This document shows positions 8,355 through 64,000 of a stretch of DNA of 64,000 bases, piece after piece. A program made the translations under genes and the position numbers. This stretch comes from Agarophyton chilense (lineage: Eukaryota > Rhodophyta > Florideophyceae > Gracilariales > Gracilariaceae). Position 1 is the stretch's first letter. The number at the start of each line of letters is the position of its first letter. The notes beneath the pieces are model-generated. The model was not told the DNA's origin, ran no database searches, and saw only the letters and a list, made by a program, of their open reading frames with translations. The stretch lies in the NCBI GenBank assembly GCA_030374765.1, contig JARGXX010000004.1, forward strand, positions 806,001-870,000, written 5' to 3'.

Positions 8355-8900
8355 TGTGGCATAAACCAAAATGGTAGCGGGGGTGTAAGACCTGTCGGTT
8401 CTACGCAGCACGCAAAGGGCTCGACATAGGAGGCGGAGGTTAAAAAGAACTGTAAGGTGTGGCGGCACCAACTACTGAAGGGTGCAACAGGAACGGCGGG
8501 CGTACTAAGACCACGTTAGTAGACGGTGATGCACAGCGCACGTGGGTCCGGAAACCCGTAAGGACACTAGAATTGTCATTATGGTCGATCGTAGAAACCA
8601 AAAGGGGTAAAAGTAGTCTAGAAGGTGTTGAAGTTTACAATAGTGACCGGGGTGGCCATGGTTGGTGAGGATATTTATCTAACCGGCCACCCGACCTACG
8701 GTGGCGCTCCTCGCCACGTGGCCATGAGGATTTTCACATAAGGTGCGCCTTTCTATCTACTTAATGCTATCGATCTAATACTAAATTAGCGAAAAGCTAT
8801 ACTAATGGCTAACCCAACCACTGTAGTACACGGCGGATGGCGGCAACCATCTAGGTCCAACACGTGGCCGTCATTACCTCCTTGGTGCAGCTCACTATAC
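8355..8900 (-). repeat. element A 3' LTR
   Basis: Matches 16640-17181 and 60331-60875 along its length (shared landmarks: gctcgacataggaggcgg, gaagggtgcaacagg, aaaagctatactaatggcta). The left edge is set where Harbinger coding (GKTRW) stops, the right edge where similarity to the 5' LTR ends at ctcactatac. Edges are accurate to a few bases only. Confidence 0.7.
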
Positions 8901-9336
8901 TAAAGATCCCCCTCATAGCGACAGGCACGCCTCATGGCTGTACTTTAGTGCGTTCGCCAGTTCTTTAGACTACAGTCCCGCAGTCACCAGTGCAAGATGT
9001 ACTATATCGTTTGGTAATGCGGCACGGTGAGCCGAACGGTCTCGATCACCATCGTGGTGCTTGAGGTTCTTCCCCCGTGGTCGTTCGTAACGACTTCGAA
9101 ATTACGCTTCTCTCGAGGGTTGCTAATGCTGGCCGAGAGTTCTTGTACCAATTGGGTTTCGTCGCGTTCTCCGTTGCATGTTTCGTGTGTTTTCCGTGCC
9201 AGACGTCCTTCATACCTCGTTGTTGTGTTCCCCGTTTCTTTTCCTTCGTCGCGCGTTACCCTCTTGTTATCATTGTTTCTGTTCTCCTCCTCTCCCTTCT
9301 CATCCATACCGTATTGGTTGGCTTTCCTTGGTCACA

Positions 9337-11640
9337 ATGTGTGCGGATTCCCCAAAACCTTGTGATGGCAGTCGAATGTCCTTCGAAAGGTCAACCGAGC
9401 ACGGTAATGACTCTCCCCATGTGTCCAACTCAATTACCGGTGTGGTTTTCATGTCGGTGGGGCCTCTTCCATTCTTTCCCGCTCAATCAGTGGAGAATTC
9501 GAGCACCTTCGATGACACATTGCACGACCGTCACGGTTTGCATCGGGCACGAGAGCCGACCTTCGGAGGGTACATAGACCCTGGAGCCCAGCCAATACCG
9601 CGCCGGTCTGCTTCTCCATCCCTGTTGGCCACCATTTCTGGTAAGGGTCCCCACATTTCGAACCGCAGTCATGGTATCTCGAAGCTTCTGACCCGCTCCC
9701 GCTCTCAGGGTCGTGTTCATGGCCAGTCTGTTACCATTTCGGTTTTCTCTTCATCAGCAATTCCTGACGAGGCATTTGGTTTCTCTGCTAAGGCCGGAAA
9801 CTACGATCCGTGGTTATTCAACAGCCCACCATCCACCCTCAACCCTTATGGTCTGCTCCCGAAGAAACTCAACCCACTGCATTAGGAGGCCACCTCTTAG
9901 TCTGTCTCGATTAATACCTCTGGGTTGGGTTCGCAGTTTAAAAATCTCACCCTTCCTGTTAATGGCTCGTGGCACCTTTGTGACAACCACCGTCTTGGCG
10001 CCGTGCCACTAGCTCCACCAATGCGGTCCAGAGAGAACCGTTCCCGTCTCGGGAGACAGGCTTGCTTTCGGAAGCATCAGCAGCATTCACCGTTTCGGTT
10101 TTTCATCCCTAACACAATCCCGAGCGACCTATCTTATCTGCGGTGTACGGAGGAGTTCTTCTACTTCCGCAACCTGGTCTGACAGTTGCACCGTATCGGT
10201 CCGTTGACGAAGTGGTTGAAGCTTGACTCTGGGATGGTGATGTTCAAAACATCCTTCGATACTATTCACTGGTTGAATCGTGACCGTTGGGATAGGACGC
10301 TGCCAACAAAGCCCGGATCCATTGTCGGAAAAGTCTCGTCCCTTACGTGCATGGTTTTCCCTGCACGGAATCCTTTTCTCAAACGAATGAAAATTGCCGC
10401 AAATGGTATGCTACCCGCCCCGACTCGTGTGAGGGCTACGAGCTACCTGAATGGCTGTGCATCCCGACTCCTCTCGTACTGGCCTAATTTGAAAGCCATT
10501 GCGACCGAAGCGAGAGGTACTATCATACCGTTTGGTCTGCCTCTTTCGTGGAGTGTGCCGTTCTGGTTGCCCTTTTCGCTGTTAAGGCCTCCCACGATGG
10601 TATTACCTGGAACAGGCGTTCAACGCCTGTTCAAGGTAATGCCATCGCGGAAGGCCTGGTAGTGCGAGGGTCGGAGCAAGTTGCTCCGACCCTCGGACTA
10701 CCAATTACGGTTTCTCCCCAGTTGGTCGAATTCTTCGGAATCCTAGCTCCACCGTAGATCTTATCCGCTAAATTGGTGTGGATGAGATTCTTTTAGAACG
10801 GAATACACCGTTGCCCAGCTGGAGACTTACCTGGAGGTGTCTATGTCGCATCCATGGAAAGATGACCAATGTTGGGAAATTTGGGACTTCGAGAAGCTAG
10901 CCATCCCCAGTGAGGCGAACAGAGTACTACCAGGCGAGGAGCACATTGGTTGGTCCCCTTAGCTCTTTACCCATGAAGTGGAGACTCCGGAAGGTATTAC
11001 CCCCGTCTCCGCTAGCGCCGCACCTGTTGGTTCCGCTGGCCTTTCTTTTATCCGCGTTCCCCGTTCGGTTCCCGCTCCTTCTTCTGGACTTGCGCAGTCC
11101 CTCAGGGTGAATCCTACCACGGCTGCCGGTGGTGAGCCTGTTACATCTCCTGCTATTTACGGTGCGCTCATGAGGACCCAGAACGTTTGCGTATCTCGCC
11201 TCAACCCTCCCGGTCCGCCCTCTCTCCAAGAATTTCTCGCACTTTTGAAGCAGCTCATCCCTCTTCAAGCGGACTTTATCGCCAGTATCAACCAGGCTGT
11301 TGCCTTCCATAATCCGTTTCAGGCCCGGATGTACCAGGCCATCACGCAGCACGTGGTGGGGATCAGCACCATTGAGGAATGTGAGCATACATCGAGCGAT
11401 CCTCTCATGGGCACCACTGTTGGTCCTTTGTTGGTTTGCGCTAGCAATTACCCTGTAGGTAGTGTGCCGAAGCCCATACCTGGCTCTTCGTCTTTCCCTA
11501 CTGCTCCTCTTCCTTCGGATACCTCTTCCTGTCTGCCACCGTTACCTCCAACGCCTCAGTGTTCTGCTCTCCATTTGTCTAGTGCGGGCTCACAGTCCCA
11601 CACTCGGAACCTTCCTGGTACTGGTCCCGGGCCTCTTTGA
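9337..11640 (+). pseudogene. element A antisense ORF (aORF)
   Basis: Lies on the strand opposite to gag-pol, between the pol 3' end and the 3' LTR. The ATG at 9337 opens MCADSPKPC, matching MHTDSPKSC at 61311 in element F. The frame is kept past stops near 9883 and 9898 into a segment with HRLGAVPLAPPMRSR, identical in F, and PNTIPSDLSYLRC. After frame changes near 10185 and 10620 it ends in a 220-codon reading (10978-11640). That last part has a helical stretch (LQEFLALLKQLIPLQADFIA) and a Ser/Pro-rich tail. No known domain was recognised. Its position parallels the aORFs of B, C, E and F. The copy is inactivated by stops and by an inverted duplication at 10585-10702. Confidence 0.6.
10585..10702. 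repeat. two adjacent palindromes inside element A aORF
   Basis: First palindrome: 36-bp arms (10585-10620 and 10621-10657), about 90% complementary with no loop. Second: 22-bp arms (10658-10679 and 10681-10702) with one mismatch and a 1-nt loop. Element F lacks this structure at the matching place (about 62545-62600), so it arose after the two elements split. Confidence 0.85.
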
Positions 11641-11859
11641 GGAACTTCTACCACTCCTGGGGTGGATATCTTCCTGTAATGGCCTTTGTAGGCTTCTTAT
11701 CTCACAATAAACTTATGCCTCTTCTTGACCTTACATTTCCCTTCTCTCCGCGCCAAGTAACAGCACCGCGAATGACGTTCCTCCCCTTTCTTACCAGAAT
11801 GCACCAGTGTAAGTTGTCATCCATCGGTTTGCGGGGGTTCGTTACGCCTATGCCAGTAT

Positions 11860-14800
11860 CGTAATCAGAAGTTGCGTTGTATATGATAAGAAGGTTCCAA
11901 TGTGTCATCTCAAGGTCCATAGCAATGCCACCGGACGTTTTAACGAAGAACTGCTGGTGTTCGTTTGTGACCTACAGTGGTGTCAATCGCGCATTCGTAG
12001 GAGGGAACCTCAGGGTCCCCGCCTAATTGCATGCTCTTTGGCTCTTTGGGTTGTCGTGGGGTCTGGAGATTTCTTTAGATCTTCCGATGGAACGCTTACC
12101 GTACCACTTGGTGAATCCGACTTTGGTTCTGCGAGTGCTGGGTTAACAGCTAGGTCCGCGGTCGTGCCACCTTTCCTAGTGTATACTGCTCAGTGAGACC
12201 CAGTCTATTGATACGGTGTGTTCGAGTCCATCCATTCGAACTGTAAAGGTGTGCTCACTCACACAGATTATTTCATATGGTTTTGTAGACTTCGGGAGTA
12301 GCTTCGACTTGATATCAGCATCGATACAAATATCGTCGTTCTCCTGGGATGGTGTCGACCTGGATTCACTGGGAGGGATGTCAATGAAGACATAATCCCC
12401 GGTTTCTACCGTGGTAGTCCTATTTACACGTTGGTCGTAGTAGGCCTCATACGGCTTCTGGGCTACTGTCAGTTTGGCATTTGCTTCTTTTAAGGGTTTC
12501 CAGAGCTTGCTTAGTATATCCTTCTTGACCTGAACAGAGGTTAGGGTACCAGCTGCTCGGTAGTTATCGGGTCCTGGTTGAAGGACAATACCATGAGGCG
12601 TCCGTGAGAGGACCGGGTCTATGGAAGCAGTCGTCATAGATCGGTGTACATGAAGGTTATAGGCATACGTTAGGGGCTATACATAATCAGCCCATCTAGT
12701 TTGGTGTTCTTCTACATAGCGTCGTAGTCTTGCCACGAGGGTTTTGTTGAAGTGTTCCACATGGCTGTTCGTCAGCGAATGGTACGCCGTAGTGGAGTAA
12801 TGCTTCAACCCAAGCATGGCACATATTTCTTCAAAGAACTTTGATGCTAAGTTCGAGCCATTGTCGGTGACTAGGTATATTGGGGCACCGTAGGGGTATA
12901 CCCAATAAAGTTCTTGCAAAGATCTTCGAGGTTGTGCTCTTCAGGGGTATGGCCCTTGTGAGTTTTGAAAACCGATCGGTGATGACCACCACGAATCGGT
13001 AACCCTTTAGGGTTTTTGGCAGTGGGCCCAGGATGTCGATAGATACAAATTCCAAGGGCCCAGCCACGGGGAAAAGCTTCAGGTACTTCCTGTGCTTTCG
13101 TGAAACACCTCGGGTTTTTACACACGAGGTGCAGCGAGCCACATAGGTATAAACACCGTGGGCCATGTGGGGCCAGTAAAAGTGTTTCCTCAAGGTAATA
13201 TATAACCAAGTGGCTCCTGGATGAACTTCCAGTCTTGGATAATGCCCTAAATATAGTACTATTGGGCGTAACGTCTCTGGTACAACCTTTTGGAGTGCTC
13301 CGTCCTGGGTAGAACGACGCACCAGGTAACCTTCATGGTTTATATCGAACTGCGATCCTTTGATGCCAAATTGGTTGCTCACTGTCTTGTAGTAGGTGTC
13401 AGGAGCTTGCGATCGCAAGAGTTTTTCTCGGGTACTGGGAGTGTCCTCCCTTTCTTCGATTTCTCCTCCCATTTTGAGTGATTCCTCTTTCTGTCTTTCT
13501 TCATTATCCCATAGTCTTTTTTGTTCGTCCTTACCATAGCATTGTGCCAGCTGAATCGTTAAGCATGGTATATCATCTTCTACCGGCTCGGTGTCCAGGC
13601 CACTGGTATCTAACAGGGAAATCGCAACCGCGATGTTGTGTTTTACACCACGGTGGTATTAGTCTTCATAGTCAAACTCCGAGAGTCGGAGTCGCCATCG
13701 AGCTAACCGTCTGGAGGCTTCTGCCAGACCCAAGACCCACCCTAAGGCTTCATGATCCGTTTGTACAGCAACACAAGCACCATATAGGTAAGGTCGCATC
13801 ATCAACATTCCATATCACGGCGAGGCATTCATATTCAGTGGCGCAGTAGTTTTGTTCCGTCTGTGTGAGCGTTTGGTTTCAGTAACCAATTGGTGCTTTT
13901 GATCCGTCCTGATCCTACATTTGACAGCAACCAATTTGGGCGTCCAAGGCGTCAGTATCCAATTTGTTTGGCTTTTCGGCTTTCGGTAATGCAAATATAG
14001 TAGGTGAAAGCAGCGCCACTTTCAAGAGATGGAAGGCGTCCAGTCCGTCTTATTCTAGATACACAAACCTTTCTGGTCGACGTTTTTTGAGACGTCGGTT
14101 TAGAGGGGCTGCTTTCATTGTAAAGCCTTTGATAAACTTGCTTCATATTTTTCATAAACATATGAAGGAGCGTTTCTCCGTTTGGGTGAAAGAATTTTTC
14201 GCTTCGTATACATCATTGAGGTTTTGTTTGGATACTTGGAGTCTTCCTATGCTGATTGTATGCACGAGACACTCTACCTTATGGTCGAAGAACATAAACT
14301 TTCTTATTTTCACAGTTACTCCAGACTTTCTTAGGAGGTCAACTACAATACGAACGTGCTCGTGGTGCTTCTCCGTAGTTTTGGAGTAGATCACCACGTC
14401 GTCTACATCCACCAATGCGGTTTTCCACCTTACTTTCGACAGTTTAATGTAAGGAGCCTATTGGAAGATTGCTTGCGCATTGCGTAAACCAAAAAGCATC
14501 CGTACGAATCGGTAGAGACCGACTTGACAGGTGAACACGGTCATATCTTTGTCCTCCTTGGGCAACTCTATTTGCCAATAACCACAGTTGGCATCCATTG
14601 TGGTAATTATATTTGCTTCTCCTAGGAAATCGATGCATTCATCCATTTTTGTTATCGGATACGAGTCTTCTACCGTAACTCCATTCAACTTTCGATAGTG
14701 GATACAGAACCCCATTCAAGTTTCTCCTCTTTTTTGCACAAGCACCACGACGCTCGCCCATACCGCACTTGCGGGTTCAATCACACCCTCACGGAGCATT

Positions 14801-19605: not shown

Positions 19606-22500
19606 CGGGATATTGGCAAATCCCTTTGGCCGAAGACGTGAGAGCGCTGACAACCTTTACCACCCATGAAAGTCTGTTCAGATTTACTCGCATGCCCTTT
19701 GGTTTGAAGAATGCACCAGCCACGTTCCAACGGGTAATGGACATTATACTGTCCAGTGTCAAATGGAAGTTCGCCCTGGTCTATTTGGATGACGTTATCA
19801 TCTTCTCACGGACCGTGAAGGAACACTTTCGCCACGTGAAGAAGGTGCGAACAATCCTACAGGACGCTGGAGTAAGACTGAAACTCCGCAAAATGCGCTT
19901 TCTGCCAGGCCTCAGTGGACTATCTCGCTTACGTCGTCCTCCCAGGAAAGCTAAAGGTGGCCACACGGACAACGAATGCGATTCGCAAGCCTCCTAGGAC
20001 CCACACGGAACTACGATCCTTCGTGGGCTTGTGCAACGTTTACCGACGGTTCGTCCAAGGGTTTTCCAAGATCTCGGCCCCTCTCAACGCGATGCTGAAG
20101 AAGGGAACACCTTCGGAGTTCGAAGCCCTTACGGACGACTAGTACGAAGCATTTCAGGCCCTAAAGGACAAATTGCTGAACTCACTCATATTGGCCTTAC
20201 CAAAGCCCAATAGGCCTTTCGTCCTGGACACATATGCATCTGATGTCCAAGTGGGTTGTGCACTTCTACAGGAACAGGAGTCACCGAAGGACTCTCGACT
20301 TATTGGCTACTGGAGCAGAACGCTCAACAGCGCGGAGCGAAACTACAGTACGACCGGAAAGGAATGTCTAGCCATCGTATGGTCCGTATTGACACTCCGT
20401 CCGTACCTCGAGGGAACCAGGCTTACAAATAGGACAGACCATGACTCACTCCGCTGGCTACTCAATATGACCGAGGCATCGAGTCGCCTCGCTAGGTGGC
20501 GCCTCAGGCTGTCAGAATTTGACTACGAGATAACCTATAGGTAAGGCATCAAGCACCAGGCAGCAGATGCCCTGTCGCGAATCATCACCGATGGAACTGA
20601 TGACACCCCATTGGACGACCTAATTCCCACCCCCTTTACAGATGATGGACCTCAGGACTACACGGAAACAGATGACCTTATGGGTAAGGTGCAATCGGAG
20701 AATCCTGAGGTGAAGGAGAACGAAATATACCTATTGGACTGGGAGACAGTACCGCCCAATTTGCCACGACCTCAGGTTAATGCGATAACCCCGGAGGAAA
20801 AAGAATTCCTCCCTAGAACTATTGAGGAACTCCTACAGGCGCAGGTCGAACACTAATACTGCAAGGAAACAGCCCAATTGGTAGGAACGCCAGGATGCCT
20901 GTTCGACTATGACCGATTTGGACTACTATGTCGCCGCTCCCCGCTGGATGGCGCACTCCAACGGGTAATACCAACTTCGCTAAGGGCGCGATTCCCTTAC
21001 CTCGCCCATTTCTCCCGCTTAGCAGGTCATCCTGGAGGCCGACGAATGTACCAGACCCTAAGGAAGTTCTTCTACTGGCCACTGATGGCGCAGGACCTAT
21101 GGAAAACCGCACGGAACTGTGCATCGTGCGCACAGATCCGAGGGTCTCGCGCCAACCATCAGGCCAAACTGAAGCTCTTCCCCGCCGCAGATCCAATGGA
21201 ATTTGTCGCAATGGATATAATTTGGCCTTGGCCTCAGTCGTTCCATGGGAAACGGTTTGTTTTGGTTATAACCGATAGGTTTACCAATGTTACCCGAGCC
21301 CTACCCCTAGGAAAGACAACGGCCGCGGATGTCGCCACGGCCTTCTTGTCCCACTGGGTATATCCATATAGCATGCCACTCTACCTCTTTACGGATAACC
21401 GCAGCCAGTTTGTATCCAAATCCTTCTCTCATGTCTGTGCTACCTTAGGTATCCAACATTTCACCATCACAGCGTACCCCCTGGAAACCACTGGCCAAGC
21501 CGAACGCTTCAACCGCACCCTTCTGTAACGATTGGCGCACTACGTTTCGGAGCACCAATTGGACTAGTACGAATACGTTGAGCCACTGGTTTATGCCTAC
21601 AACACGCAGGTGCACGCTTCCACAGAGACAACGCCCTTCGACTTAACGCTAACGAGAGCGCCGCCGCCGATAGCTGTTGACCTTCAAGAGTCTATCATAC
21701 CCCAGGGCATAACCGAAGGGATGACTCCTACCCAGGTGAAGCGCTACTCGCGCCGACGCATTGACCGCATTCTCCAATCGGCTAGAAGTGTACTAACCAA
21801 AGCCCAACGACGCTACGAATGCAATTTCGACAGAGCCGTTTGGAACACACCGAGCTTTGGGAAAGGAGATCTGGTTTACCTGGACCGGCCTCCAAAGGAC
21901 AGTGAGGAACTCGAGGACACTACGCGGAAGCTCTTACACCGCTCTACGGGACCATAAAAAGTCCTCAAGGACAATCCACACACAATTACGTTACTAACTG
22001 ACGACCTACAGGACACCGTGTCTATTGACCGCGTGACACGAGCTCCCGGTTCCTCCGGACCACGAACGTCCCAGCCCCCTGGCCCAACGGAAGCACCATG
22101 ACCTCAGGTCGACACTCAAGTCTCCACACCCCTAAAAAAATTCCCGAGGACTCGACTAGCCCCACGGACACGATGGTCCATGCCAACTACTATGACCCAC
22201 CGCTCCCAACCTACTCCGATGGATTCGCCTCTCTGGACCACACTCTCCTTCCGGAGGATGAACACCAACCGGAATATGTGATTGAGCGCATCATCTCCGC
22301 CGGTATGGGAGAAGATGGAACTATGCGCTATCGCGTCCATTGGTTCGGCTACACACCTGAGGAAGACACTTGACAAGAGCCTCAAACCATTCTGGCTAAT
22401 TTTATCGCCCGCTATTGGCGCAGAATCAGCCACTCGGAGCGCGGGCTTCTGGAGGGGGGAACCATTGGTCCGAATAATCTCAAAACGTCTCCCAAACCGC
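19605..22500 (+). pseudogene. element E pol (partial RT, RNase H, integrase, chromodomain)
   Basis: Starts inside RT at NSGYWQIPLAED, then RMPFGLKNAPATFQR and VYLDDVIIFS with the catalytic Asp pair. After a frame change near 19910 come TELRSFVGLCNVYRRFV, RNase H (FVLDTYASD, TGKECLAIVWSV, TDHDSLRWLL) and QAADALSRI. Integrase follows: GHPGGRRMYQTLRKFFYWP, CASCAQIRG zinc pair, FVAMDIIWPWP (Asp), LFTDNRSQF (Asp; family DNGSQF) and TGQAERFNRTLL (Glu). The chromodomain is EYVIERIISAG then YRVHWFGYTPEEDT. In-frame stops occur near 20140, 20542, 20854, 21526, 21565, 21955 and 22372. The gene cannot make full Pol. Confidence 0.9.
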
Positions 22501-22740: not shown

Positions 22741-23817
22741 TCACGGGGGCGGCGCAGGAGTAACTCCGTCGTCGTCATTGGAAACTGCAGAAGCGAAACC
22801 AGGACTACGGTCACCGGAGAAGCCAACTGGACCACTAGAACCGGCCCCAGCGAGCCGAGCACGCTTCTTCGGCGGAGACTCACCTGAGGAACTATTGTCA
22901 CCATCGGAAGCCACTCAGTCGCTCTAATTTAGACCATACCGGTCATCCAAGTCGGCAGTAACCCTCTGGGACATCGCCTGCGCATTCTGCTACCCGATAT
23001 TGACCATAGCGGTCTTCAGATCCTGACCCTGTTGGACAACCGCGGCGTTGCGCACCGAGCGATGCGCCCAGGAGTAGGCTTCCCTCAGGACTGTCGCATT
23101 GTCCATTGAGGTAGTAATACCAACCGGACGGCAGAAGGGCATAACGCACTGCCCGCGGATTTCGTCCGATAGTTTGTTCATAGCGGTACCTGGGGCGTTC
23201 ATAGGCCACTTGGTATCCAGAGGAGCTCCCCGCTTGGTTGTTCGAAGCCATGGTGCCGCATCCCACAGGTGGGTCCGCCGGGAAATGGATAGGAAAACCG
23301 ACGGAAGCGACATAGTCCGGAGGGAGAATGCCATTTCCGACGGGCTCATAAGGCGATCGTGGCATCGCGCGCGACCAATGGAGGAATACCGGGAAGGGAA
23401 GAAGGAAAAATGAAACCGAATTGGGCAGGATGACTGACGTGACCTTGAATGGACGAAGCGCGCACCGTGGTTCACGGCGGACAACGCGCCTAGGGTCGCC
23501 AAAGGAATACCGAAGGATACGAAAAGCGGCAAGGAACCCCCCCCCCCTCGGTGCTCGTACAGTACCTTAGGTGAACTAATTGCCAACCTGTCGCCAAGGG
23601 TCAGCTCTTACGCACTGGTACCCTCGAGGATGGTGGCGATGCGACGCCCCGTCGCGCCCACTGGTAACGAGAACAACAAACCCCCGGATTAGTCATAAGA
23701 CGCCGACATGTCGGGCACTGTATCGCTCGTGTCCAGGCCATTAGGACGCTGAGGATCACGACGTTCCGACCCCGAAGGCAAGATCGGAGGTTCACCCGTA
23801 GGTCCAACTAGAGCCAT
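22741..23817 (-). pseudogene. element E antisense ORF (aORF)
   Basis: Minus strand, convergent with pol, opening MALVGPTGEPPILPSG 66 nt from the 3' LTR. Frames change more than once. A middle part reads LPPDYVASVGFPIHFPADPP, then a helical part ATVLREAYSWAHRSVRNAAV and DLKTAMVNIG. The end is a Ser/Pro/Asp-rich tail with the basic cluster PPKKRAR (about 22880) and terminates APPP-stop at 22741. No known domain was recognised. The same position and a similar layout (globular part, helices, low-complexity tail) occur in the aORFs of A and B. The basic cluster could be a nuclear import signal; that is inference. Confidence 0.5.
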
Positions 23818-27690: not shown

Positions 27691-27876
27691 TTTTACATAT
27701 CCCTCCCGATAAGTGCGGGGCACCCGCAACTCAAGAACATAAAAGCGTATCGACAGCCTGCTTCACTCTAGCTTCCCGGTCTCAACAAGCTTCCAAACGT
27801 TGCATCTCAACACGAACGCTCTTCCAGTTTTCTTGTACACCCTGAAACATTCCCAAAGAGCAATCCCCGCTATGTA

Positions 27877-28698
27877 GTGAATCCACGAACGTCGTACGAC
27901 GACCTGGATAACCCAGCACATCGTCATACGACTACGTCTTCGGCTCGTCCCGATCCAAGATCGCGAACAGTGCCACTTCCAATTTCCTCCTCGGGTTCTA
28001 ACTTAGCATATCCTTATTCGACAGCAGCCATTCTGCAACCATCATCGTCTGCGATTCAAAATTTCCCGCACTATGCGGACCTTGTTCGGTGGAACCCGAT
28101 GCAGCACACTACGCTTTTCGCTCGTGCTCCCGGCTTTTTCTCCGCAGCTGTCTGCGACGAAGATCTGATTGGTCGATACGAAGTCGCTGGTTGACTTCCT
28201 GACGGTATTCAGTGGTATGTGCTATACACAAGCGACTGGCTCAGCCACTATGCGATTTCGAACAACTCGGTAAACCTCTTTGGGTCAGAAAGCCTGGAGG
28301 AAGCCTGCAGAAAGTTCACTCGATTAGGGTACCAGCGGGTGCCCCGCGTGGTTGGGATCGTTCCCGCCGTATTGATCCTCAGAACGAACATAGAAGCTTA
28401 CTCGTATGTCGAGAACCTTGCGGATTTGGATTTCCAATCGTGGCGCGGCGTACGAGGAGTATCTAACATGGCTCTCTGTTTCGACAGTTCTCAAATACGA
28501 CCGGAGTTCCGCTACCTTCGCAAGCGCGATAATCCCTATTGGAAATTCTGTCGATGGGAGAGACGTACTCGATCACGACTAGGATACTTGGCCCCGTACC
28601 AAATGCTGGAGATTGACCGAGTTCGGTATAACTAGCGCATCAGGCGCTACGTTCCCATTCCCCTTTATTGGAATTCAGTCGAGAGTCCTCTTGGTTTT
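27877..28698 (+). pseudogene. element C antisense ORF, first part
   Basis: The open reading starts before 27877 with no clear ATG and runs to the 3' LTR of element B. It aligns with element B aORF in order: CDEDLIGRYE with RDDELIDSY; ESLEEACRKFTRLGYQR with ESLDKAHAAMAALAYQR; IRPEFRYLRKR with FRAEFRYLQRQ; RSRLGYLAPYQMLEIDRV with RSRFGFLVLYPHVELERI; VPIPLYWNSVE with VPLPAWWSKVE. Stops lie near 28191 and 28633. The protein resumes at 40455 after element B. Function unknown. Confidence 0.7.
28694..28698. repeat. element B target-site duplication (left)
   Basis: gtttt directly before the left LTR; the identical gtttt follows the right LTR at 40455-40459. Confidence 0.9.
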
Positions 28699-29614
28699 TG
28701 TGGAGCAAAACCCGGCGACGGGAAGTGCTCTCAAGGTGTTCGAAGCCTTGCTCCCTGGGGGAGGCAGACTCAGAGACAGAGCCCTCCGTTCCGCCCGTAG
28801 TGTGGGGTGTAACTCTCACGGGGGATTCCGGCAGTACCGACGGAGGTGAGGGGTAGAAACCGTTGGATCGGGAATGGGTATGGGTATCCCAAAGAATGGG
28901 GGAAAATCCGGCGAAGAGGAAAAACGGGGCGAGGGTCGGGCACTAACAGGCACCGGACCCGAGAACCAGAAAAGGGGCGAAACAACAAAAGAAACCCAAT
29001 ACAGGGGCGAAAACCTGTCCTCGAAAGGAAACACAAAAAGCACGCAACAAGTAAGCAGAACCCCCAAGGGGTATCGTGCACGCAGGTCGTCTGAGCGGTC
29101 CCAAGGGGGTGGTTGCACGGAACCCAAACGTGGGCACTCTCCAAGTGGAGTCGTGTCCCTACGCAGGCGTTGCTAACCAGAGCCCGTTCCGGGTTGTAAG
29201 GCCGAAACGATGGCGACGAAGAACCTCTAAAGGTATCGAAGACCAACCTTGGTTACCATTTACTCTGAGCTTCGGACTGTCAGATCTCATCTCCCTAAGT
29301 AGGGCCCACTAACTAAACTCTACAGTAGTGCACACCTGCTCAGGGCCATACACGTGGAGATCTCACTGTCAGGGCCCAAAAATCCAACGTTCTAACAAAT
29401 ATCCGAAAATCGGTGCCAAAATTAAGCCACGTGTATCACGGGGCCAATCCAACCATGGGCCATCCGAATTTTCACTTCATAGGCGAACTCTAACCAGAAA
29501 ACAGTGCCACCTCAGCACACCTTAGAGGGGATCTTAGTCATAACCCTCGGAGGGTTCAATCCTCATTCTATGAGTTGCCTCTTCAAGTATCCCCTAACTG
29601 GGCGTTGCTCTACA
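28699..29614 (-). repeat. element B 3' LTR
   Basis: TG...CA ends; about 99% identical to 39539-40454. Long frames inside it (for example 28770-29246, minus) recur in both copies and match nothing recognised. Confidence 0.97.
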
Positions 29615-29629
29615 TCTCCCCCTCCTAAA
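29615..29629 (-). other. element B polypurine tract
   Basis: Minus strand tttaggagggggaga abuts the 3' LTR; similar to the PPT of element E. Confidence 0.85.
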
Positions 29630-29673: not shown

Positions 29674-29683
29674 CACTATATAT
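29674..29683 (+). promoter_or_regulatory. possible TATA element of element B aORF
   Basis: ctatatatac, 12 nt before the aORF ATG at 29696. Very close to the ATG, so transcription would have to start elsewhere or give a minimal leader; composition alone supports it. Confidence 0.25.
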
Positions 29684-29695
29684 ACTTCTCTCCCA

Positions 29696-31550
29696 ATGGG
29701 GTCCTTCACCACTTCTGAGGATCGCCACAAAACCGGCACATCGGTACAACTTTCTTCTACTCCTCCGACTTTCGGCGATAAGCAACTTCTCGCAACAGCA
29801 GTCTCAACCAGCCCTCTCAAGGGAATGAACCCATACGTCCTCAACCCACTCTCGGAGCCATCGGCCTCCGCGCCGGCGGACAACGAAGCTCCCCAGCAGG
29901 GTGGATATTTCTCCGGTTTGGATGCGGCTCCGTCAGGTACCGAACCTTCCGCCTCGGCGAGCAACCGACATCTTCAGGAGGATTTGGACATTAACGCGGT
30001 GGCGTGGAACGCCGCTCATGCGATGCCCTTGGTAGCAAACTCCAGAGGTTGGATCTCAAACGAATCCTTTCGAAGGTGGAGTCCCCTTACCAATCGGGTT
30101 ATATTCCCGCGCTCCGTGGTTCCATCCGACAGCGGTTCGCGATGATGAGCTCATCGACTCCTACGTGGAGGACGGCTTATTGCCGGGTGGCCTACCTGTC
30201 GAGGTTGTACGTTCTCCCGATTGGAGGGCGCGGATAGCCATAGAGCCTCAGTATCTATACCGCGGTCGCGGGGAGTCCCTGGACAAGGCGCACGCAGCGA
30301 TGGCGGCTCTGGCCTACCAGCGATTGGAGAGGTCACGCTTTGACCATCTGGTTCCCCCGGAGTACGGGTTCGATGTCGCCTATTACCGCACGTAGGGTGA
30401 GGTCTCGTACGGGGATAACCTGGCAGCCTTTCCCGAAGCCGAGTTCCGCGGACCGGGTTTTTTTCTCCGAGAAGATATGCTCCAATGGAGTCGTCCCATC
30501 TTTCGGGCTGAATTCAGGTACCTTCAACGGCAGTTTACCCAGTATGGGTTCGATCGACGCGTGTGCTTCGAGCGCGGCTCGCGCTCCCGTTTCGGGTTCC
30601 TTGTCCTGTATCCTCACGTGGAACTGGAGCGTATCCGTAACACGGCGAAGGTTGGGCGATTCGTGCCCCTTCCAGCTTGGTGGAGTAAGGTCGAGGTCCC
30701 CCGAGGGTGCTTTGCTGAACTGCCCCCATGCATCTACTATATCGGGTCTCGTTTGATGCACGACCCGAACTCGGGATACTGGGCCCTCGTTGCAGCCGAC
30801 TGGGCAGCCCGCGTAGCGGCGCACCTCCTCTGGGATGCTCATGACCATTTCCGTATCTGGTATATTCCTCCGATGCTACGGACCATCATGCGTCAGATCG
30901 ACCTTGTCCCAGCGTTGGGTTCGGCCAGCAGCGTGCAGGACCTGTATCCAATCTTGGACGTGATCGACAACACCCAATGGGATCGAGTTCCAGTGGAAAA
31001 TCAGCCCGCAGGGGAAGGATCCGCGCGAGACAAGTCTCCTGGCCGGTACGATCCGGGCTCCGGTAACTGGGTCTATTACAATCCCTTCGAAGGGGTTCGC
31101 ATCAGCGCGGCGCAAGCACGGACGCTGTTTGACTCGCCTCGACCGATGCCGGTGAGACATCCGACGGGGTTCATTTATACCGACGATTACGAGTACGAGC
31201 CTCCAGTAGACCTGGACGATCCAGCGTTGGATAACGACATGTCAGCTCCTAGTGGAGTACTCCCTGTGGAGCCATCTGCACCCTTCCAACCAGTGGGAAC
31301 GACCTCAGCTGCGGCGGCGAATGCATCCAGTGGCGGTCCATCTGCTCCCCCCGGATGGGGTGTGAACACCCTTGCGCAGGCGCCGGTTGCCACTCCGCAA
31401 GCGGATAGTGTGCGACAAGGCCTCGTGAACGCGGGCATTCCGATTCCCCCGGGTATGACGGATGTGAGCCAGATGTTGGCTTTCGCCTCGGCGTACCATC
31501 AGGGTCAGAATCCCAACGGTGGGGCGGGTCCCTCCTCGGGCTTTCCGTAG
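29696..31550 (+). pseudogene. element B antisense ORF (aORF)
   Basis: Opposite strand to gag-pol. The ATG at 29696 (MGSFTTSEDRHK) lies 81 nt inside the 3' LTR. The first about 145 codons are Ser/Pro-rich. A frame change at about 30120 leads to RDDELIDSYVEDGLL, a stop at 30393, then an open 357-codon run from about 30396 to 31550. Landmarks shared with element C: SPDWRARIAI, ESLDKAHAAM, EFRYLQRQ, FAELPPCIYYIG, GYWALVAADW, MRQIDLVPALGS, DVIDNTQWDRVP, ARTLF. The last 120 residues are Pro/Ala/Ser-rich and end NPNGGAGPSSGFP. About 610 residues before damage. No known domain or catalytic motif was recognised. Conservation with C indicates past selection as a protein. Confidence 0.75.
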
Positions 31551-31955: not shown

Positions 31956-32246
31956 TTACCCGACTTGGGCACGATCCAGACTTGGAGGCAAGGTTACCCG
32001 AGCGCGTCGGTGATAGGATAAAACCTTAGACCTCGGAAGGTGCTCAATGGGTTCCACTGTATCCTCATCAGGCGAGAAGCCGTACCATCGGACTTGGTAG
32101 CGAACTTCTCCCTCGGGGGTGTAGATGTGACACACGATGCGATCGATAACGAATTCCTGCGAGTACACTTTTCCCTGTTCGGGCTTCTCTTCCATCTTGG
32201 AACGCTCTAGTTCCCTTGAGGGTGTCAACGTAGGGTATAGACACAC
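31956..32246 (-). pseudogene. element B chromodomain (displaced pol C-terminus)
   Basis: 96-codon reading with QEFVIDRIVCH, YQVRWYGFSPDEDT and EHLPRSKVLSYHRR, a typical chromovirus chromodomain, which in this clade steers integration by binding modified histones. It is in a different frame from the integrase reading that ends at 32746. About 500 bp (32250-32740) without recognised pol coding lies between them. Confidence 0.8.
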
Positions 32247-32745: not shown

Positions 32746-35700
32746 TTATTCCCATTCCATAAGGGAGAGCCAAATTTGGTCAACCTCATCGTCGAGATCT
32801 TCCCCGTGCGGGTCCGCTGACACAGCTCGTTCCCGAGAAAGCGGGGTTTGAGTGTGCGACACCTCAGTGTCTCCTCCGCGGCGGCGGGTGATCGTCGGCT
32901 CTGTAGGCGTTCCGGGTGCGGAGTTCTCCACACGACTCTCCCTAGGCGGGTTTTCGTCATCTTTTCTGACGTCGTGCTCGGCTGGGTCGGCGGTGATGTC
33001 GCTACCCATACGCTGGGGTTTTGACTTCTCTGTCGCCGGCTCGGTCGGGCTCGCCGTCTCACTGTGAGAACTAGATTCCCTGTTAGGGCGACTGGCTGAC
33101 GCCGAAACATCGTCCTGCGAAGGAACTAAGTCCTCCTCCCCCTCCTTAGGCGGAGAGCCAGGAGGCTTGATTACCTCCGGTGGGGGAGTAACTCTGTAAG
33201 AGTTCGTTGACTGGGCCCTTGAGGGAGCGGGCCCAGGTTCGGGAGTATCCGAAGTTTCCGGTAGGTCGGTTAAACCACGTTCCGGGTGCGGAAGTATAAC
33301 GGGGCGGGTGTTCGAATCTCCGCCTGACGGGTTAACTTCCGTTGGATCATCCCCTGTGGAGGGCGTTGGTGCCGACACCACTTCCACATTTGGGTTGAGT
33401 GCTCGTGTGATGCGGTCCCTGGAGATCCGTTCGTGGCGGTTAGCGATATCCAATACCACCGTGTCCGGGTCTACAGAAACTACAAGATAGGGTCCGTCCA
33501 CAATTGGCGAAAGCTTGTGCCTACGTTCCTTTTCAGGATTGTAGTATTCCTTTCGAAGGAAGACGAAGTCGTCGGGCTCCACCTGAGGTAGAGGTTTGCG
33601 AACCCGATTGTCAAAGTCCTTCTTGTAGGCGCGTTGAGCTTTGTCCATTGCATTCCGGGCTATCGGCACCATCTTCGTAAGCCACTCCTTCCAGGCTTCT
33701 CGGTACAATCCCGGTGACGGGTACGTCGACAGCGTCGGTTGAGCCTCGATGGCGACCGGCGGCGGTGTCCTCGACAGTACCAGTTCGAATGGGGATAAAG
33801 ATGTAACCCGATGTACCTGGGTGTTGTATGCATACGTGATAGCGTCTGTGTACAAGTCCGAATTTTTGGGGTGATCCGCAACATACGATCTCAAAGCGTT
33901 TAGTATCGTGCGGTTAAACCTCTCCACCTGGCCATTCCCCTGAGGGTGATACGTAGTAACAAATAAATTCCTTTCATCAAGGATTCGACATACATCCTGA
34001 AAGAACTTTGATGCGAATTGCCCTCCGTTGTCGGATAACAACTGCACCGGCGGTCCATATACGAACACCCAATGGGTCACGAACGCTTGCGCGACGGTAG
34101 CGGCGGTGATCCGCTTCAGCGGCACAGTTCTCGTTAGCTTAGAGAATCTGTCAGAAATGACAAGCAGATACCGATGACCTCGGGGCGTCCTGATAAACTC
34201 CCCTAGGATGTCTATGGCCACGAATTAGAGTGGAGTCCGTGCCGGGAACAGCGTCAACTTCTTAGAGTGCTTCCGAAGTTTGACGTCATTCTTGGCGCAA
34301 TTGGCGCAGGCCCGTCTGACGGGGTAACAATCGAATGCCATTGCCGGCCAGTAAAAGTCCCTTCTCAACGTGAGGTACAGTTTTCTTCCCCCGGGGTGGG
34401 CGCCAACCTTCACATAGTGAGTGAGGTGTAATACCCTCTGTTGTAGGGTGTGCGGCACCACTATCCTCGGGCGAGGTCCAACGGTCCTGATTAGGTAACC
34501 CTGATCGTCGTCCTCGAAAGGTAACTGAAATCCTCCGTTGAGGCGAGCCCGAATCCGTGTACAGAATGGGTCGAGCTGTTGCTCGCGTATCATCTCCTCT
34601 GGAGAGATAGGTATAAAAGAGCCGGTCGGCGAATCCAGACTCTCGTTGACGAGTATATCGTCACAAACATCATCCGTCAGCGGTTGAGCTCCTCCCTCGA
34701 GGTCCGATACCATAAAACATGGGATGTCATCGTCCTCGTAGGGTTCCGTTTCCGCTGTGGTTCCCAAGCGGGATAGTGCATCAGCCTGAGTGTTCAGCTT
34801 CCCTTTCTTGTACAGGACCTCAAAGTCGAATTCCGACAGTCGGAGACGACAGCGCATAAGGCGGCCCGAGGGTTCGGAGATCTCCAGGAGCCAACGCAAG
34901 CATGCGTGGTCCGTATGGACTTTGAAACGAGTACCCATCAGATAGGGGCGAAGTGTAGCTAAGGCCCACACAACGGCTTAACATTCTTTCTCGGAGACCG
35001 AGTAGTTCCTTTCATGGACATACAGGGAACGTGACCAGTACCCAATAGAGTGACGTTCACCATCCTCAGAGGATTGGAACAGTGCACAACCTACTTGGTT
35101 TGCACTAGCATCGGTGTCCACTTCGTAAGGGAGCCCAGGATTGGGTAGAGCCAAGATTGGCGGTGATGTTACGGCATTCACCAGTGCCGTGAAGGCAGAC
35201 GCTTCCGCGTCGCCAAAAGGTTCCAGTTCAACTGGTTGTCCCTTTGTCAGGAGCCTGTTGAGGGGGGTGGCAATATCCGCAAAGTTCGGGACGAATCGGC
35301 GATACACGTTACACAGACCTAAGAAGGATCGCAACTCCGTTTGAGTTTTCGGGTGTTTTGCTTCCTTCAAGGATTTCACTCGTACTTCATCGATTGAAAG
35401 CTATCCGGGACGGAAGATATGACCCAGATACTTAACCGAATCGGTGAAAAACTCGCACTTCTTGAGTTTCAAGGTGATTCCCGCGTCGCGGAGTATCTTC
35501 ATTACGTCCCTGACGTGTTCGAGGTGGTCATCCAGGTTGTTGGAGAAGACAATAATGTCGTCTAAATACACTAGACACGTCCTCCACTTGAAGGGAGCCA
35601 ACAGAATGTCTATCGCCCGTTGAAACGTTGCGGGGGCATTTGTCAACCCAAAAAGCATCCTCCGGAATCGGAAAAGTCCTTGATGACACACGAAAGCCGT

Positions 35701-39311: not shown

Positions 39312-39520
39312 GCTGCAGACACGACACCGAAGATTCGGGGTAACGATGAAATTCGATCACGAGATTCCCGGAGAACGGATGACGTAACACAAAACAAAAA
39401 TAAAAACCAATTCCACCCTTTCCAAAGGGGACCACTACAACAAATCTTCACGACGGTGCTTCCTCTTCCAAGAGATATTCCAACACGTGGATGACCAACC
39501 CAAAAGTCCGAGAACGGCTT

Positions 39521-40454: not shown

Positions 40455-41284
40455 GTTTTCCTGTGGAGCTCCCTCCAGTGATTACCTACGTTGGTCTCCA
40501 CCCTGCAATTGATTCGTTCTCTGGTTATTGGGTAGTTGTCTACAGTGAATTCATGGCGAAGATGGCCATGTTCGTTCTTTAGGATGTGTATCACACCTGT
40601 CATATGTAGGTCAGGAGCCCAATGGCTCGACAACTTGCGAGACAGTTGGATCTTTCCCTAGTATTGTGGTCAAAGGCAAATCACGAAGAGTTTCAGCACC
40701 TGATGAGTGTCATGGACCAGATTGACTGGACACTGGTGCCCAGCGAGCAGAATGGAAGAGCTAAACCTAGTCTTGATCATTCCTTTGGAATGACGGGGCC
40801 TGGCGGCGATTTTGTACGGTATAATTCATGGACTAAACAACACATCGACGACGATCACGCCAAGACCCTACTGTAAAATCAGAGAGCAATGCCTCATACA
40901 CAGCCAACTGCCTATCAATTTGAGCTGGTGCCTCTTAATGACGGTCCACTCGAGGAAGAGCTCCAAGAAATCGATTACGGTGACGATCCTGAAGAGGCGG
41001 GCCTCGAAATCCCCGTTCCAACGTAAAATGACGCTATTAAGCCCATAATGCTCGGTTAAACACAAGCGGATGGCCTCGAGTCAACAGCGACAGCCGTGAT
41101 GCAGATTCCTGCGTACGAACCCGAACATCCGGTGATGTCTTGGCACAATGCGTAACTCGTCAATCTAATGCGGTTCCTCGAAGAAGCTGGGATTCCCCCC
41201 ATTACCAATAATGGCGACGGACACCAAATGCTAAGTATCTTGCGCTCTTCGACTGGAAATCACCCTAATGCTTTAAGTTCGTGA
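40455..41284 (+). pseudogene. element C antisense ORF, second part
   Basis: Continues the reading broken at 28698. Order of matches to element B aORF: VELPPVITYVG with AELPPCIYYIG; GYWVVVYSEF with GYWALVAADW; ARQLARQLDL with MRQIDLVPAL; VMDQIDWTLVPSEQ with VIDNTQWDRVPVENQ; GDFVRYNSW with GNWVYYNPF; AKTLL with ARTLF; and near the end EEAGIPPITNNG with NAGIPIPPGM and HPNALSS with NPNGGAGPSS. Stops lie at about 40580, 40874 and 41024. With 27877-28698 it forms one interrupted pseudogene. Confidence 0.7.
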
Positions 41285-41454: not shown

Positions 41455-42240
41455 TTAAATTAAATCAGGCCTTTCTGAGACCACCAAACTGACGAAAGCG
41501 TCATTAATATTACCGGAGGTATCCACCTTAGCTCGTCTAAAGTAGGACAACACGTGAGATCGTGGTAAATGTTGTATGGAATTCCATTTTTTATCTTCGG
41601 GTTGGTTCCCACACAAACGCACTACAAACAGAAAACTATTTTTTTGTAGCATGCCCATCGTGGATGATGATTCGTTCGATGACGTACTCGCCCTCTGTAT
41701 TGAGCGGCTCTGAAGCTAAGGTAACACTCCTGCGATCAGGTCTCGCTGCACGTGGTTCGCGTACCGTAGACTGAGCGTGCTCAAAATTGGCTTGCTTCGT
41801 AGAAGCGTCTGATGTCGGGTCATCGCGTTCATCAACTTTGTACACTCCCCGGTGTTTCAAAGCCAGGTGTCTGAATTTCCTTCATCTATCCGGTTCGGTG
41901 AGGGCATCTTTTGCCACCTTCGATTTATCCGAATTCATAGGCGATGAAACGACATTATTCCTGGCTGTACGGAATTGTTCCGCTTTTTTGTTCTCGTTTC
42001 AAATTCCGGGACTATGGTAGCCGGTGTTTCGGGGTTGGTCTCCTGTTTTGAAGCATTCCCCAGTGGGAGGTTCGCTGATACAGTCTTAATAAACTGTGGA
42101 TTTACCATTTCTTCGGTATCTCAACTTAGATTATTCTTTCTCTTAGGGGATGGGAGACGCGCGATTGCGGTGTTCCTGTCCTTGCTCCTGATCCGCGGAA
42201 CATCTCTGCTGCTTCCAGGGTCTTCAAAGTTTTTCTAAAC
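41455..42240 (-). pseudogene. element C pol C-terminus with chromodomain
   Basis: Minus strand: a Glu/Pro/Ser-rich linker (TNPETPATIVPEFETR) as in element B, then EYVIERIIIHDGH (about 41680), a frame change, VVRLCGNQPEDKK and QHLPRSHVLSYFRRAKV. The last block is nearly that of B (EHLPRSKVLSYHRRARV) and unlike E, placing C in the B lineage. Integrase, RT and gag of C are not found to the right; the element is truncated. Confidence 0.7.
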
Positions 42241-55516: not shown

Positions 55517-55529
55517 TTATTGTGTCGTC

Positions 55530-57350: not shown

Positions 57351-57455
57351 AATCGCATTTTCCATCCGTCCAAGGGGCCTGCTTTAAATCCCAAGAAAAA
57401 CGAGGACGGCTAGGCAAGTCAGAACTGGTTGAATTAGGGGCTGGGCCCATAACTT

Positions 57456-57647
57456 AGAATCAGAACAGTGTAAACGGTTTTGATATCTATAGCACAACTA
57501 CGATCGCTTCTCTACCGAGTTCATACTATCTGCAGATAGAGCACATAGCTTAAGTAGACTAACGCGGCAAATAATAAACGGTCGCTACAAATTCAACCAC
57601 AAACATTAACGGTTGAATCACAAACCGTCATCATTAATACGGATTCA
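57456..57647 (-). repeat. copia 5' LTR
   Basis: Partner of 52908-53099; followed by piggyBac transposase coding on the plus strand. Confidence 0.9.
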
Positions 57648-61310: not shown

Positions 61311-62760
61311 ATGCACACGGATTCCCCGAAATCCTGTGGTTGAAGTCCAATGTTCGCCAAAGGGTCAACCGAGCACGGTGATGGCTCCTGTCGTGGGTCG
61401 AGCTTAATAACCGATGTGGGTTTCGTTTTGGTAGGGCCCCTTCGTTTTTTTACCGCTCAATCAGCGGAGCACCTTCGAGGACAAATTACACGACCGCCAT
61501 TGTTTGCGTCGGACGCCATGGCCTACCGTCGATTGGTACAAAGGGCTTGGCTCCGATACAATACTGCGTCTGTCTGCCTCTTCATCACTGTTGACCACCA
61601 TGTCTGATAAGAGTACTCGTGGGTCGAACCGCAGCCGTGGTATCTGGAAGCCTCTGACCTGCTGTCGCTCTCGGGGTCGTAGTCCTGGGCAATCCATCAC
61701 TGCTCCGGTTTCTTGTTCATTCCCCATCACCGGTGAGGTGTTTTGTTTCCTTCATTTGTCCGGGCGTTACGATCCCTTCTTGTTCAGCGCCCCGCCGGCC
61801 ACCCTCAACTCTTACTGTCTGCTCCCAAAGCAGCTCAAGGCGCTGCATTTTGAAGACACCTCTTGCTCTGTCCCGATTAACACCGCTGGGTTCGGTTCGC
61901 AGTTTAAGCATCACAACCTTCTTGGTTATGCCTCATGGAATCGTTGGGACAGACACCGTCTTGGCGCCGTGCCATTAGCTCCACCGATGCGGTCAAGGAA
62001 GAATCGTTCCCGTCCATGAAGACAGGCCTGCTTTAAGAAACGTCAGCCACACTAACCGTTTCGTTTTTCCATTCCCAACACCATTCCGAGCGACATATCA
62101 TATCTGCGGTGTAAAGATGAGCTCTATTTCTTTCAGAACCTTGTGGGATTATTGTACCGTTTCGGTCAATTGACGAAGTGCCTGAAGATTGACCCGGTAA
62201 TGGTGATTTTCGACTCACCCTTCAACACCATCCACTGTTTGGATCGTGACCGTTGGGGCGAGGACGCTGCCACCGAGACTTGGATCTGCGGTCGGAATAT
62301 CCTCGCCCTTACCATGCATGATTTTCATTGCACTGAGTTCTTTTCTCAGACGACGGAGAATCACCGCAAATTGTACGTAACCCGTCCCGAATGGTGGGCG
62401 GACTACGAGGTGGCTCACTGGTTGTGCGTTCCGACTCCCTCCGTGCTGGCATAGTTTGGCAGCCACAGCAACCTACAAGAGGAGTACTATCATACCATCT
62501 AGTCTGTGGCACTCGCGGAGTGGGCCATTCTGGTTGCCCTTCTAGCTGTCAAAGCCTCCCGCGACGATATGACCTGGGACAGCCGATGCCTGTACCTGGC
62601 TATTCGTCTTTCCCTCTCATTTTCTCTCGGGTACCTCTTCAGGTCTGCCACCATTGCCTCCGACTCCTCAGGGTTCTGCTCCGCATTGTTCTAGTGTAAG
62701 CTCACAGTCCCGCACTCCGAACCACCCTGGCACTGGTTTCAGGCCTTCTGGAGAATCTTT
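61311..62760 (+). pseudogene. element F antisense ORF (aORF)
   Basis: The ATG at 61311 opens MHTDSPKSC, as in element A. Further matches to A: STEHGDGS with STEHGNDS; PINTAGFGSQFK with SINTSGLGSQFK; HRLGAVPLAPPMRSR (identical); PNTIPSDISYLRC with PNTIPSDLSYLRC; VALLAVKASRDDMTW with VALFAVKASHDGITW; SSVSSQSRTPNHPGTG with SSAGSQSHTRNLPGTG. A run of about 100 open codons at 62143-62454 includes VTRPEWWADYEVAHWLC, lost in A. Stops and frame changes inactivate it. Unknown function. Confidence 0.6.
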
Positions 62761-62938
62761 TGTCTCGCATGGTCCGAACCCCTTCCTGGAGGTGTCTTTG
62801 TGGGTTTCTTACCTGGTGCGGTTTTCAATTAACTCGTTATTTATTCTTGACTATACGTTTCCTTTTCCTTCGCTCCGAATAATTGCTCATCCAATGTCTT
62901 CCATCTCCATCCTTAGCGGCCTGAACCAGTGTAGGTCT

Positions 62939-64000
62939 TTATCCATCCGTTGGTGGGAGTTCGTTGCGCCTGCCCCAATACTGTAATCGGAAGTTGCCTC
63001 TTACATGGTGAGGACGTTCCAATGTGTCATCTACAGGGTCATAGCCATACCACCGTACAAAATAACGAAGACCTGCTGGTATTCGTATGTGACCTAAAAT
63101 GGTATCGATCGCGCATTCGGAGGCCGGGACCTCAGGGTTCTCGCCTAATTGAGGTGCGTAGTCATGCTCTTGGGATGCATTTTGTGACGTGCACTCAGAT
63201 TCTGGGGGTGTCATGCCAACGGTTGGGTTCGCTATGACTTCACGTATACCTTGCGGTACTTGGTGATGTATTCGAGAGAGGGTTGGGGCGGTTTGAGTTA
63301 CTCCAATCACTGATCCAGATGGTGGTTCAGTTTTAGCTTCGCTGCCCTCAGGGCCGTCCCGGGGACCACTGGGGGCCGTAGCAGTACCTCTACTAGCGTT
63401 TATTGAGACCCGGTCTACCAATACGGTGTTTTCGGGTCCATCCATTCGAACCGTGACGGTGCACTCATTCGCTGAGATTACTTCATATGGTCTTGTATAC
63501 TTGGGGAGTAGCTTCGATTTGATGTCAGCATCAATACGAATACCGTCTCTTTCCTCGGATGGTGGTGGTCGCGATCAACTGAGAGAGTTATCAATGAAGA
63601 CATAGTCACCAGTTTCCACCTTGGTAATCCTCTTCACCCCTTGGTCGTAGTAAGTTTTGTACCGCTTTTGGGCTACTTTCAATTTACCATTGGCTTCCTT
63701 TAAGGTTATTCGGAGCTTGTTGAGTATATTCTTCTTGACCTGAGCGGAGGTAAGTGTACCAGCTGCTCGGTAGTTCTCAGGTCCTGGTTAAAGGACAATA
63801 CCACAGGGTGTACGTTAGAGGACCAGGTCGAAGGGATTAGTCTTTAAAGATCGTTGTACCTGAAGGTTGTAGGCATATGTGAGGGGCTGTGGATAATCAG
63901 CCCACTCTGTTTGGTGTCCTTCGACGTATTGTCGTAGTCTGGCCACGAGGGTTTTGTTGAATATTTCCACTTGGCCGTTCGTCTGCGGATGGTACGCCGT
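62939..64000 (-). pseudogene. element F pol, integrase and chromodomain part
   Basis: From the window edge leftward: AYHPQTNGQVEIFNKTL with the catalytic Glu of integrase, RQYVEGHQTEWADYPQPLTY, LKTNPFDLVL, then a stop near 63815. The integrase C-terminus, a Pro/Ser-rich linker (TEPPSGSVIGVTQ) and a chromodomain (CAIDTILGHIR, YFVRWYGYDPVDDTLE, NFRLQYWGRRN) end at 62939. The RT half lies outside the window. Confidence 0.8.

Follow-up and report, generated by a model that had tools for sequence, protein, structure and literature searches.

Between pol and the 3' long terminal repeat (LTR), chromodomain Ty3/gypsy elements of the red alga Agarophyton chilense appear to contain an accessory gene that runs antisense to gag-pol. 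The stretch analysed here, referred to as the window, consists of 64,000 nucleotides of contig JARGXX010000004.1 (assembly GCA_030374765.1, positions 806,001 to 870,000, forward strand) and holds five such elements, designated A, B, C, E and F. As judged from substitution patterns, the antisense gene is shown to encode a protein family of ~560-875 residues under purifying selection, and it is almost certainly a selected protein-coding gene. Translation would be from an antisense mRNA of its own, with its start within the 3' LTR or a little inward of it, and convergent with the gag-pol mRNA; such a transcript is likely. More weakly, the product may act in trans as a regulator of the element, in transcript control, in protection against silencing or in the pre-integration complex. 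Grande gene23, Retand ORF4 and HBZ of human T-cell leukaemia virus (HTLV) are proposed to play a role of this kind, and its extension to the algal protein is tentative, at somewhat less than even odds. The explanation as a whole, an accessory protein gene with its own antisense transcript and a regulatory role, is given a probability of about 0.6.

Antisense open reading frames in the window and in the genome

The original prediction placed an opposite-strand gene in all five elements. Searches with intact relatives (tblastn) supported this for A, B, C and F, where the following copies of the antisense open reading frame (ORF) were recognised:

9598..11436, + strand: decayed antisense ORF of element A (A/F type); matched by intact A' proteins in tblastn (lowest E 5e-41)
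29825..31550, + strand: antisense ORF of element B, from the conserved methionine (Met); in-frame upstream ATG at 29696
27865..28698, + strand: 5' part of the antisense ORF of element C, interrupted where B has inserted; match at 27865-28695 to the C-type protein of L074 (tblastn, E 2e-95, 58%)
40457..41284, + strand: 3' part of the antisense ORF of element C; tblastn E 2e-76, 53%, match 40460-41281
61311..62760, + strand (outer limits taken from the original prediction): decayed antisense ORF of element F (A/F type); tblastn E 2e-49, 41%, matched stretch 61870-62586

All of the antisense copies in the window are broken. That of B, matched by intact relatives at 29696-30115 and 30099-31544 (+), has a frameshift near 30.1 kb and a nonsense codon near 30.4 kb. 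Those of A, C and F are fragments, the A copy being recovered as three tblastn stretches (9598-10311, 10290-10622 and 10798-11436, +). Element B is inserted within the antisense ORF of C, and the two C pieces together give one continuous protein.

Full frames recur in many copies of B, C' and A' in the assembly (79.8 Mb in 135 contigs). For example, querying with 384 C-terminal residues of the B protein returned, among the best 107 of 1585 candidates scored, 106 copies at 93-96% identity besides that of the window. An open frame of at least 610 codons without a stop was counted by hand in 51 of these 107 rows, and in 20 of 30 fetched B loci the frame that opens with the conserved Met runs for at least 570 codons, the B type being 575 codons long. 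The A/F-type query (best 140 of 438 candidates scored) led to a second, better kept family, A', at ~41-46% identity with open frames of up to 876 codons; its full frames of 835-875 codons (L069-L071) are continuous. The C-type query (best 150 of 1209 candidates scored) led to a family C' at ~51-53% identity, with 611-codon stop-to-stop frames and a full frame of 560 codons (L072, L073), and a full frame was also found in a C-like copy (L074). L069-L074 were picked for their open frames. Over the seven intact antisense spans, the other five frames have 6-40 stops each. From these comparisons and the substitution patterns described below, the antisense gene is judged to be real and selected in at least three element groups: B, C/C' and A/A'/F.

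Selection on the antisense frame

The C' copy L072 and the C-like copy L074 were aligned as DNA only, and codons with a single change were counted in each frame. In the antisense frame 133 changes are synonymous and 74 nonsynonymous, the lowest nonsynonymous share, and the amino-acid identity is 48.5%; in four other frames synonymous changes number 25-40, nonsynonymous ones 182-206, and the identity is 25-29%. A protein-guided comparison of the same two types gave a ratio of nonsynonymous to synonymous substitution rates (dN/dS) of 0.12 by the Nei-Gojobori method (NG86). For the C copy of the window against L074, the antisense frame has 78 synonymous and 48 nonsynonymous changes. For A against F over 9598-10311 it has 40 synonymous and 53 nonsynonymous changes, compared with 15-36 and 65-80 in the other frames; a second A/F stretch gave no useful alignment. 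Between B and C', dS is saturated (NG86), the proportion of nonsynonymous differences (pN) is 0.47, and mismatch by codon position is 0.49, 0.43 and 0.70. Within the B core, variants shared by at least two copies (20 synonymous, 15 nonsynonymous) have a dN/dS (omega) of 0.30 (binomial p 5e-4) and single-copy variants one of 0.73 (shared versus single-copy, Fisher p 0.016).

A frame could look conserved as the shadow of a sense-strand gene, for instance one for an envelope-like (env-like) ORF, or be open by chance in GC-rich DNA. A GC content of ~55% does make long open frames commoner, and sense-strand ORFs of 286 and 271 codons occur in the same region of L071 and L072. The opposite frame that shares wobble positions with the antisense frame also has a raised amino-acid identity in the comparison of C' with C (43%, with 121 synonymous and 111 nonsynonymous changes) and 68 synonymous to 55 nonsynonymous changes in that of window C with L074. 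However, this frame is interrupted by 19-40 stops per copy over the seven intact spans, and in six of the seven it has the most stops of any frame, the exception being L074 (19 stops versus 21 in another frame). No sense-strand frame is open across the span. Because of the stop counts and the substitution pattern, this explanation is rejected and retains next to no probability.

A single protein family and its relatives

The landmarks that the original prediction saw in common between B and C are borne out by an alignment of five sequences in which the B, C' and C proteins and a database homologue, P0002, have 95 invariant columns. In the core of the B/C types the motifs run R-x2-R-S-x2-G-x2-V-P-Y, then W-x3-E-x-P-R-G-C-x2-E-x2-P-x3-Y-x-G-S, A-x2-A-x3-L-W-x3-D and S-P-G-R. 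The A' and A proteins form a second alignment group with another database entry, P0003. Comparison of the B/C and A/F profiles with hhalign gave a probability of 95% and an E-value of 2.3e-8 over 245 columns, the E-value being approximate because each profile is built from few sequences (5 and 6). Window B is also matched directly by A' proteins (tblastn, E 0.002-0.003). On these profile and protein matches, the A/F and B/C antisense proteins are homologous, which goes beyond what had been claimed. Together with the evidence of selection, the profile match agrees with the proposal that the gene has stayed with the chromodomain Ty3/gypsy lineage through deep divergence. As had been observed, no evident similarity links the B LTRs to the LTRs of elements A, E or F (lowest E 0.13); those of A and F are 77% alike.

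P0002 and P0003 are the only database relatives that were found. The best match of P0002 in this genome is no higher than 52% (best 75 of 1893 candidates), and P0002 therefore comes from a different source. P0003 ('unnamed protein product [Agarophyton chilense]') corresponds to an A'-type locus, C128:930039-931958, over three segments with 97, 98 and 99% identity. The matches listed for that locus do not include residues 1-89 of P0003, and the protein is without parts of the frame that are present in A' copies, perhaps as a gene model spliced around a damaged copy. The near identity of P0003 to this locus points to Agarophyton chilense (Rhodophyta, Gracilariaceae), or an alga very close to it, as the host; phycobilisome genes are located for the most part on contig C39 of the assembly. 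A scan of viral and prokaryotic contigs with the B/C-type profile gave no relative.

Linkage to pol

The carriers have reverse transcriptase (RT), RNase H and integrase in gypsy order and a chromodomain, the criteria for a Ty3/gypsy chromovirus. In element B, pol matches the Pfam families RVT_1, RT_RNaseH, Integrase_H2C2 and rve, that is, RT, RNase H, H2C2 and integrase. Searches of the window with B pol recover the related pol sequences of elements A, E and F, and pol of A, B and F lies on the - strand. Queries with B pol and gag found neither gene beside C, the recognised parts of which are its antisense ORF and the remnant of a chromodomain. The parts of the carriers recognised in the window are:

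8376..8900, - strand: 3' LTR of element A; partner 16663-17180, 85% identical
11844..11996, - strand: chromodomain of element A, end of pol; tblastn with the B chromodomain, E 9e-7
28698..29614, - strand: 3' LTR of element B; partner 39538-40454, 917 bp, 99.1% identical
29615..29626, - strand: polypurine tract of element B, adjoining the 3' LTR; judged by eye
32004..32165, - strand: chromodomain of element B, convergent with the antisense ORF
32746..39356, - strand: gag-pol frames of element B; Pfam, with the gag frame assigned by position and without a Pfam match
41533..41628, - strand: chromodomain remnant of element C; tblastn E 3e-6
22272..22370, + strand: chromodomain of element E; tblastn E 4e-8
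63002..63121, - strand: chromodomain of element F; tblastn E 3e-8

The chromodomain is opposite in strand to the antisense frame in all five window elements, in accord with the convergent arrangement originally described. This arrangement recurs across the genome, at 30 of 30 B loci and at 7 of 8 further ones. A sample independent of the ORF was drawn by integrase DNA (best 40 of 689 copies). Fifteen of the 40 coincide, compared by eye, with ORF places from the B-type search. Twelve of the other 25 were fetched as 401-base stretches, with 13 left out, and the ORF was on the expected strand in 12 of 12; among these, three have an internal stop, two are split into two matches and one has a gap. 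Most copies thus have, in the interval from pol to the 3' LTR, a conserved ORF that is antisense to gag-pol, the layout by which an aORF-3R is structurally defined.

Two observations concern the layout of B pol. In the window copy (region 32004-32746) and in six of six other B copies, the integrase-side frame stops after ...MEWE, and the chromodomain follows several hundred bases on as a separate ORF, for which splicing or re-initiation may be needed. A 34-bp direct repeat (97%) joins the end of the antisense ORF (31373-31406) and the gap before the chromodomain side of pol (32605-32638).

Start of the gene, candidate promoter and properties of the protein

P0002 and the C' copy L072 start at a Met aligned to residue 44 of the B frame, at 29825 in the window. 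By this alignment, the B protein likely starts at the conserved Met at 29825 and not at 29696. A candidate promoter element lies upstream:

29677..29684, + strand: TATATATA, candidate TATA box between the 3' LTR and the B antisense ORF, 148 nt upstream of the conserved Met

The position of TATATATA would suit a promoter located a short way inward of the 3' LTR, but it proves nothing.

The N-terminal sixth of the protein is rich in Pro, Gly, Ser and Ala (44-52%) in B, P0002, C' and C; so is the C-terminal sixth in B and P0002 (54-60%), and less so in C' and C. Isoelectric points are 5.2-6.4 for the B/C types and 8.8 for A'. Hydropathy over 19 residues peaks in the core, at 0.93-1.75 in five proteins; the value is borderline in C and A'. 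The usual line for a membrane segment is 1.6, and two of the five proteins are above it.

No domain had been recognised in the original prediction, and the library searches likewise gave no match judged credible. The five B/C-type members had nothing significant in Pfam, NCBIfam or PHROGs, nor had their profile among PDB sequences, and the six A/F-type members had nothing significant in Pfam or PHROGs. Two matches of the A/F type were taken as chance: NCBIfam sider_BP_EitA with one of the six members (E 8.5e-4), and an engineered cytochrome c555 trimer with the profile (3.8e-7, in three weak stretches). Single-copy cytochrome c552 scores 0.45 with the same profile, and no CxxCH was seen by eye in that part of the alignment.

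Element E

The remaining frame of the original prediction could not be confirmed:

22741..23817, - strand: putative antisense frame of element E; gene status or family membership not supported

Membership of the E frame in the antisense family is not supported by any profile or tblastn match. Its coding signal is weak and inconsistent, and the 157 matches to the E-type query (best 150 of 1072 candidates scored) have open frames of at most 355 codons in the matches listed. The E-type frame ends in a nuclear-localisation-like PPKKRARL, which is also found in the copy L075 and is absent from L076; the copies are old.

Weight of the evidence and alternative explanations

Several results weigh against an antisense accessory gene with its own promoter as a constant of these elements. 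The E frame has no match with the B/C profile (hhalign, E 0.33 over 14 columns) and no tblastn match to intact relatives of other types; the pol of E is about as close to that of B as A pol is, yet no homologous antisense gene was detected in E. The candidate TATA box is partly conserved: of the 27 B copies in which the Met can be recognised, 14 have the exact sequence; TATA[AT]A is absent from both strands of the window B LTR, and no clear equivalent of the box was seen by eye in C' or C. The dN/dS check proposed with the original prediction gave low values for C' versus C and for the shared variants of the B core, and less decisive ones elsewhere. In young copies the ratio is 0.47-0.63 and frames differ little, as expected of copies that drift after insertion. 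The N-terminal part of B has an omega of 1.1, without constraint; single-copy variants there are near neutral, as would be expected if such copies no longer evolve as sources, and shared variants are the informative class. In the C-terminal tail of B no difference is seen between shared (0.33) and single-copy (0.54) variants (Fisher p 0.43). Core and tail values are biased, since the 30 B loci were selected for similarity to the C-terminal protein.

Granted a selected gene, its product could be something other than a regulator. A structural or particle protein made from antisense RNA (envelope-like, movement or capsid-associated) is suggested by the large size and the fairly hydrophobic stretch of the conserved core, and the same slot is held by env-like ORFs in plants, as described in sections of PMC7264820; but the orientation is the opposite of the sense orientation expected of an env-like gene, three of the five proteins have no clear transmembrane segment and Pfam gives no match, which leaves this reading unlikely. 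An anti-silencing factor, guarding the element from host RNA interference or chromatin silencing, has a similarly small share of the probability. Antisense transcription convergent with gag-pol would give double-stranded RNA, a consequence set out in PMC7264820, and an element that tolerates it may therefore need protection; the B family is also numerous (107 copies as the best of 1585 candidates). Nothing specific in the sequence points to such a function, however, and the argument is one of inference. Capture of a host gene, retained by the elements, has precedents among retroelements (PMC7264820, in part) and is distinctly improbable here: P0002 and P0003 are the sole database relatives, P0003 fits an A'-type locus at 97-99%, and no systematic search for host genes lacking pol was made. 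The accessory gene with a regulatory product is accordingly preferred to these. In its boldest form, as an ancient, lineage-defining trans regulator of red-algal chromoviruses with an antisense promoter beside the 3' LTR, arisen independently of TRP28, Boty and HBZ, it is doubtful.

Other features of the window

Inside the decayed antisense ORF of A there are two adjacent near-perfect hairpins (10585-10703), with 36-nt arms at 89% and 23-nt arms at 96%; this stretch is where matches to other copies break. A Ty1/copia-like element at 52908-57649 has RVT_2, CCHC and weak rve matches and terminal repeats ~95% identical, and its pol contains a PTM/DIR17-like Tudor match below the cut-off. A sulfotransferase gene lies at 47047-48096 (Sulfotransfer_1, E 2e-24).

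Comparison with known systems

The slot is, as originally noted, that of the antisense ORFs of plant Tat-lineage elements. Antisense ORFs in this position are described, in the portions of PMC7264820 and PMC11963269 consulted, for Grande, RIRE2, Retand, PvRetro13 and Boty, the last an element of the fungus Botrytis cinerea with the ORF between pol and the 3' LTR (PMC7264820). For Grande gene23 (aORF-3R) of maize, a promoter upstream of the gene and a nuclear product are reported in the same portions (PMC7264820, PMC11963269). The Retand antisense ORF is constant across its lineage, in 97% of clusters and nearly all recent ones, according to parts of PMC11963269, and in HTLV the antisense promoter lies inside the 3' LTR (PMC7264820, in part). 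Beyond plant Tat-lineage elements and Boty, such extra genes occur in some retroviruses. HBZ is a short bZIP protein.

The red-algal gene resembles each of these and differs from each. Like Grande gene23 it belongs to a Ty3/gypsy element and lies antisense in the slot from pol to the 3' LTR, but the host is a red alga and the element carries a chromodomain; the proteins were compared via Pfam and not directly. Like Retand with TRP28 it is constant across a lineage; Retand, however, is described as a non-chromovirus (PMC11963269, in part), and Transposase_28 (PF04195) is not among the matches at E <= 10 for the five B/C-type or six A/F-type members. In this genome as a whole Transposase_28 has no match over the cut-off and one weak match under it. 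Boty likewise is an LTR element outside plants with an antisense ORF in the same slot, and its protein is likened by position only. HTLV-1 HBZ shares the antisense arrangement and differs in its bZIP, for which no Pfam match was found in the B/C-type or A/F-type members. Since carrier, host and, as far as tested, protein family differ, the gene is aORF-3R-like and not the Retand/TRP28 gene.

No antisense ORF in red-algal LTR elements was found among the listed titles and abstract openings of the open-licence literature, from which absence from print is not established. What would be new here, as far as the sequence comparisons reach, is an antisense family without a detected relation to known ones, in chromodomain elements of a red alga. 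If it is independent, this genome plan evolved several times, and antisense regulators would have arisen repeatedly in LTR elements. Since dozens of copies have intact frames, the alga would serve as a high-copy system for studying antisense promoters, convergent transcription and what such proteins do.

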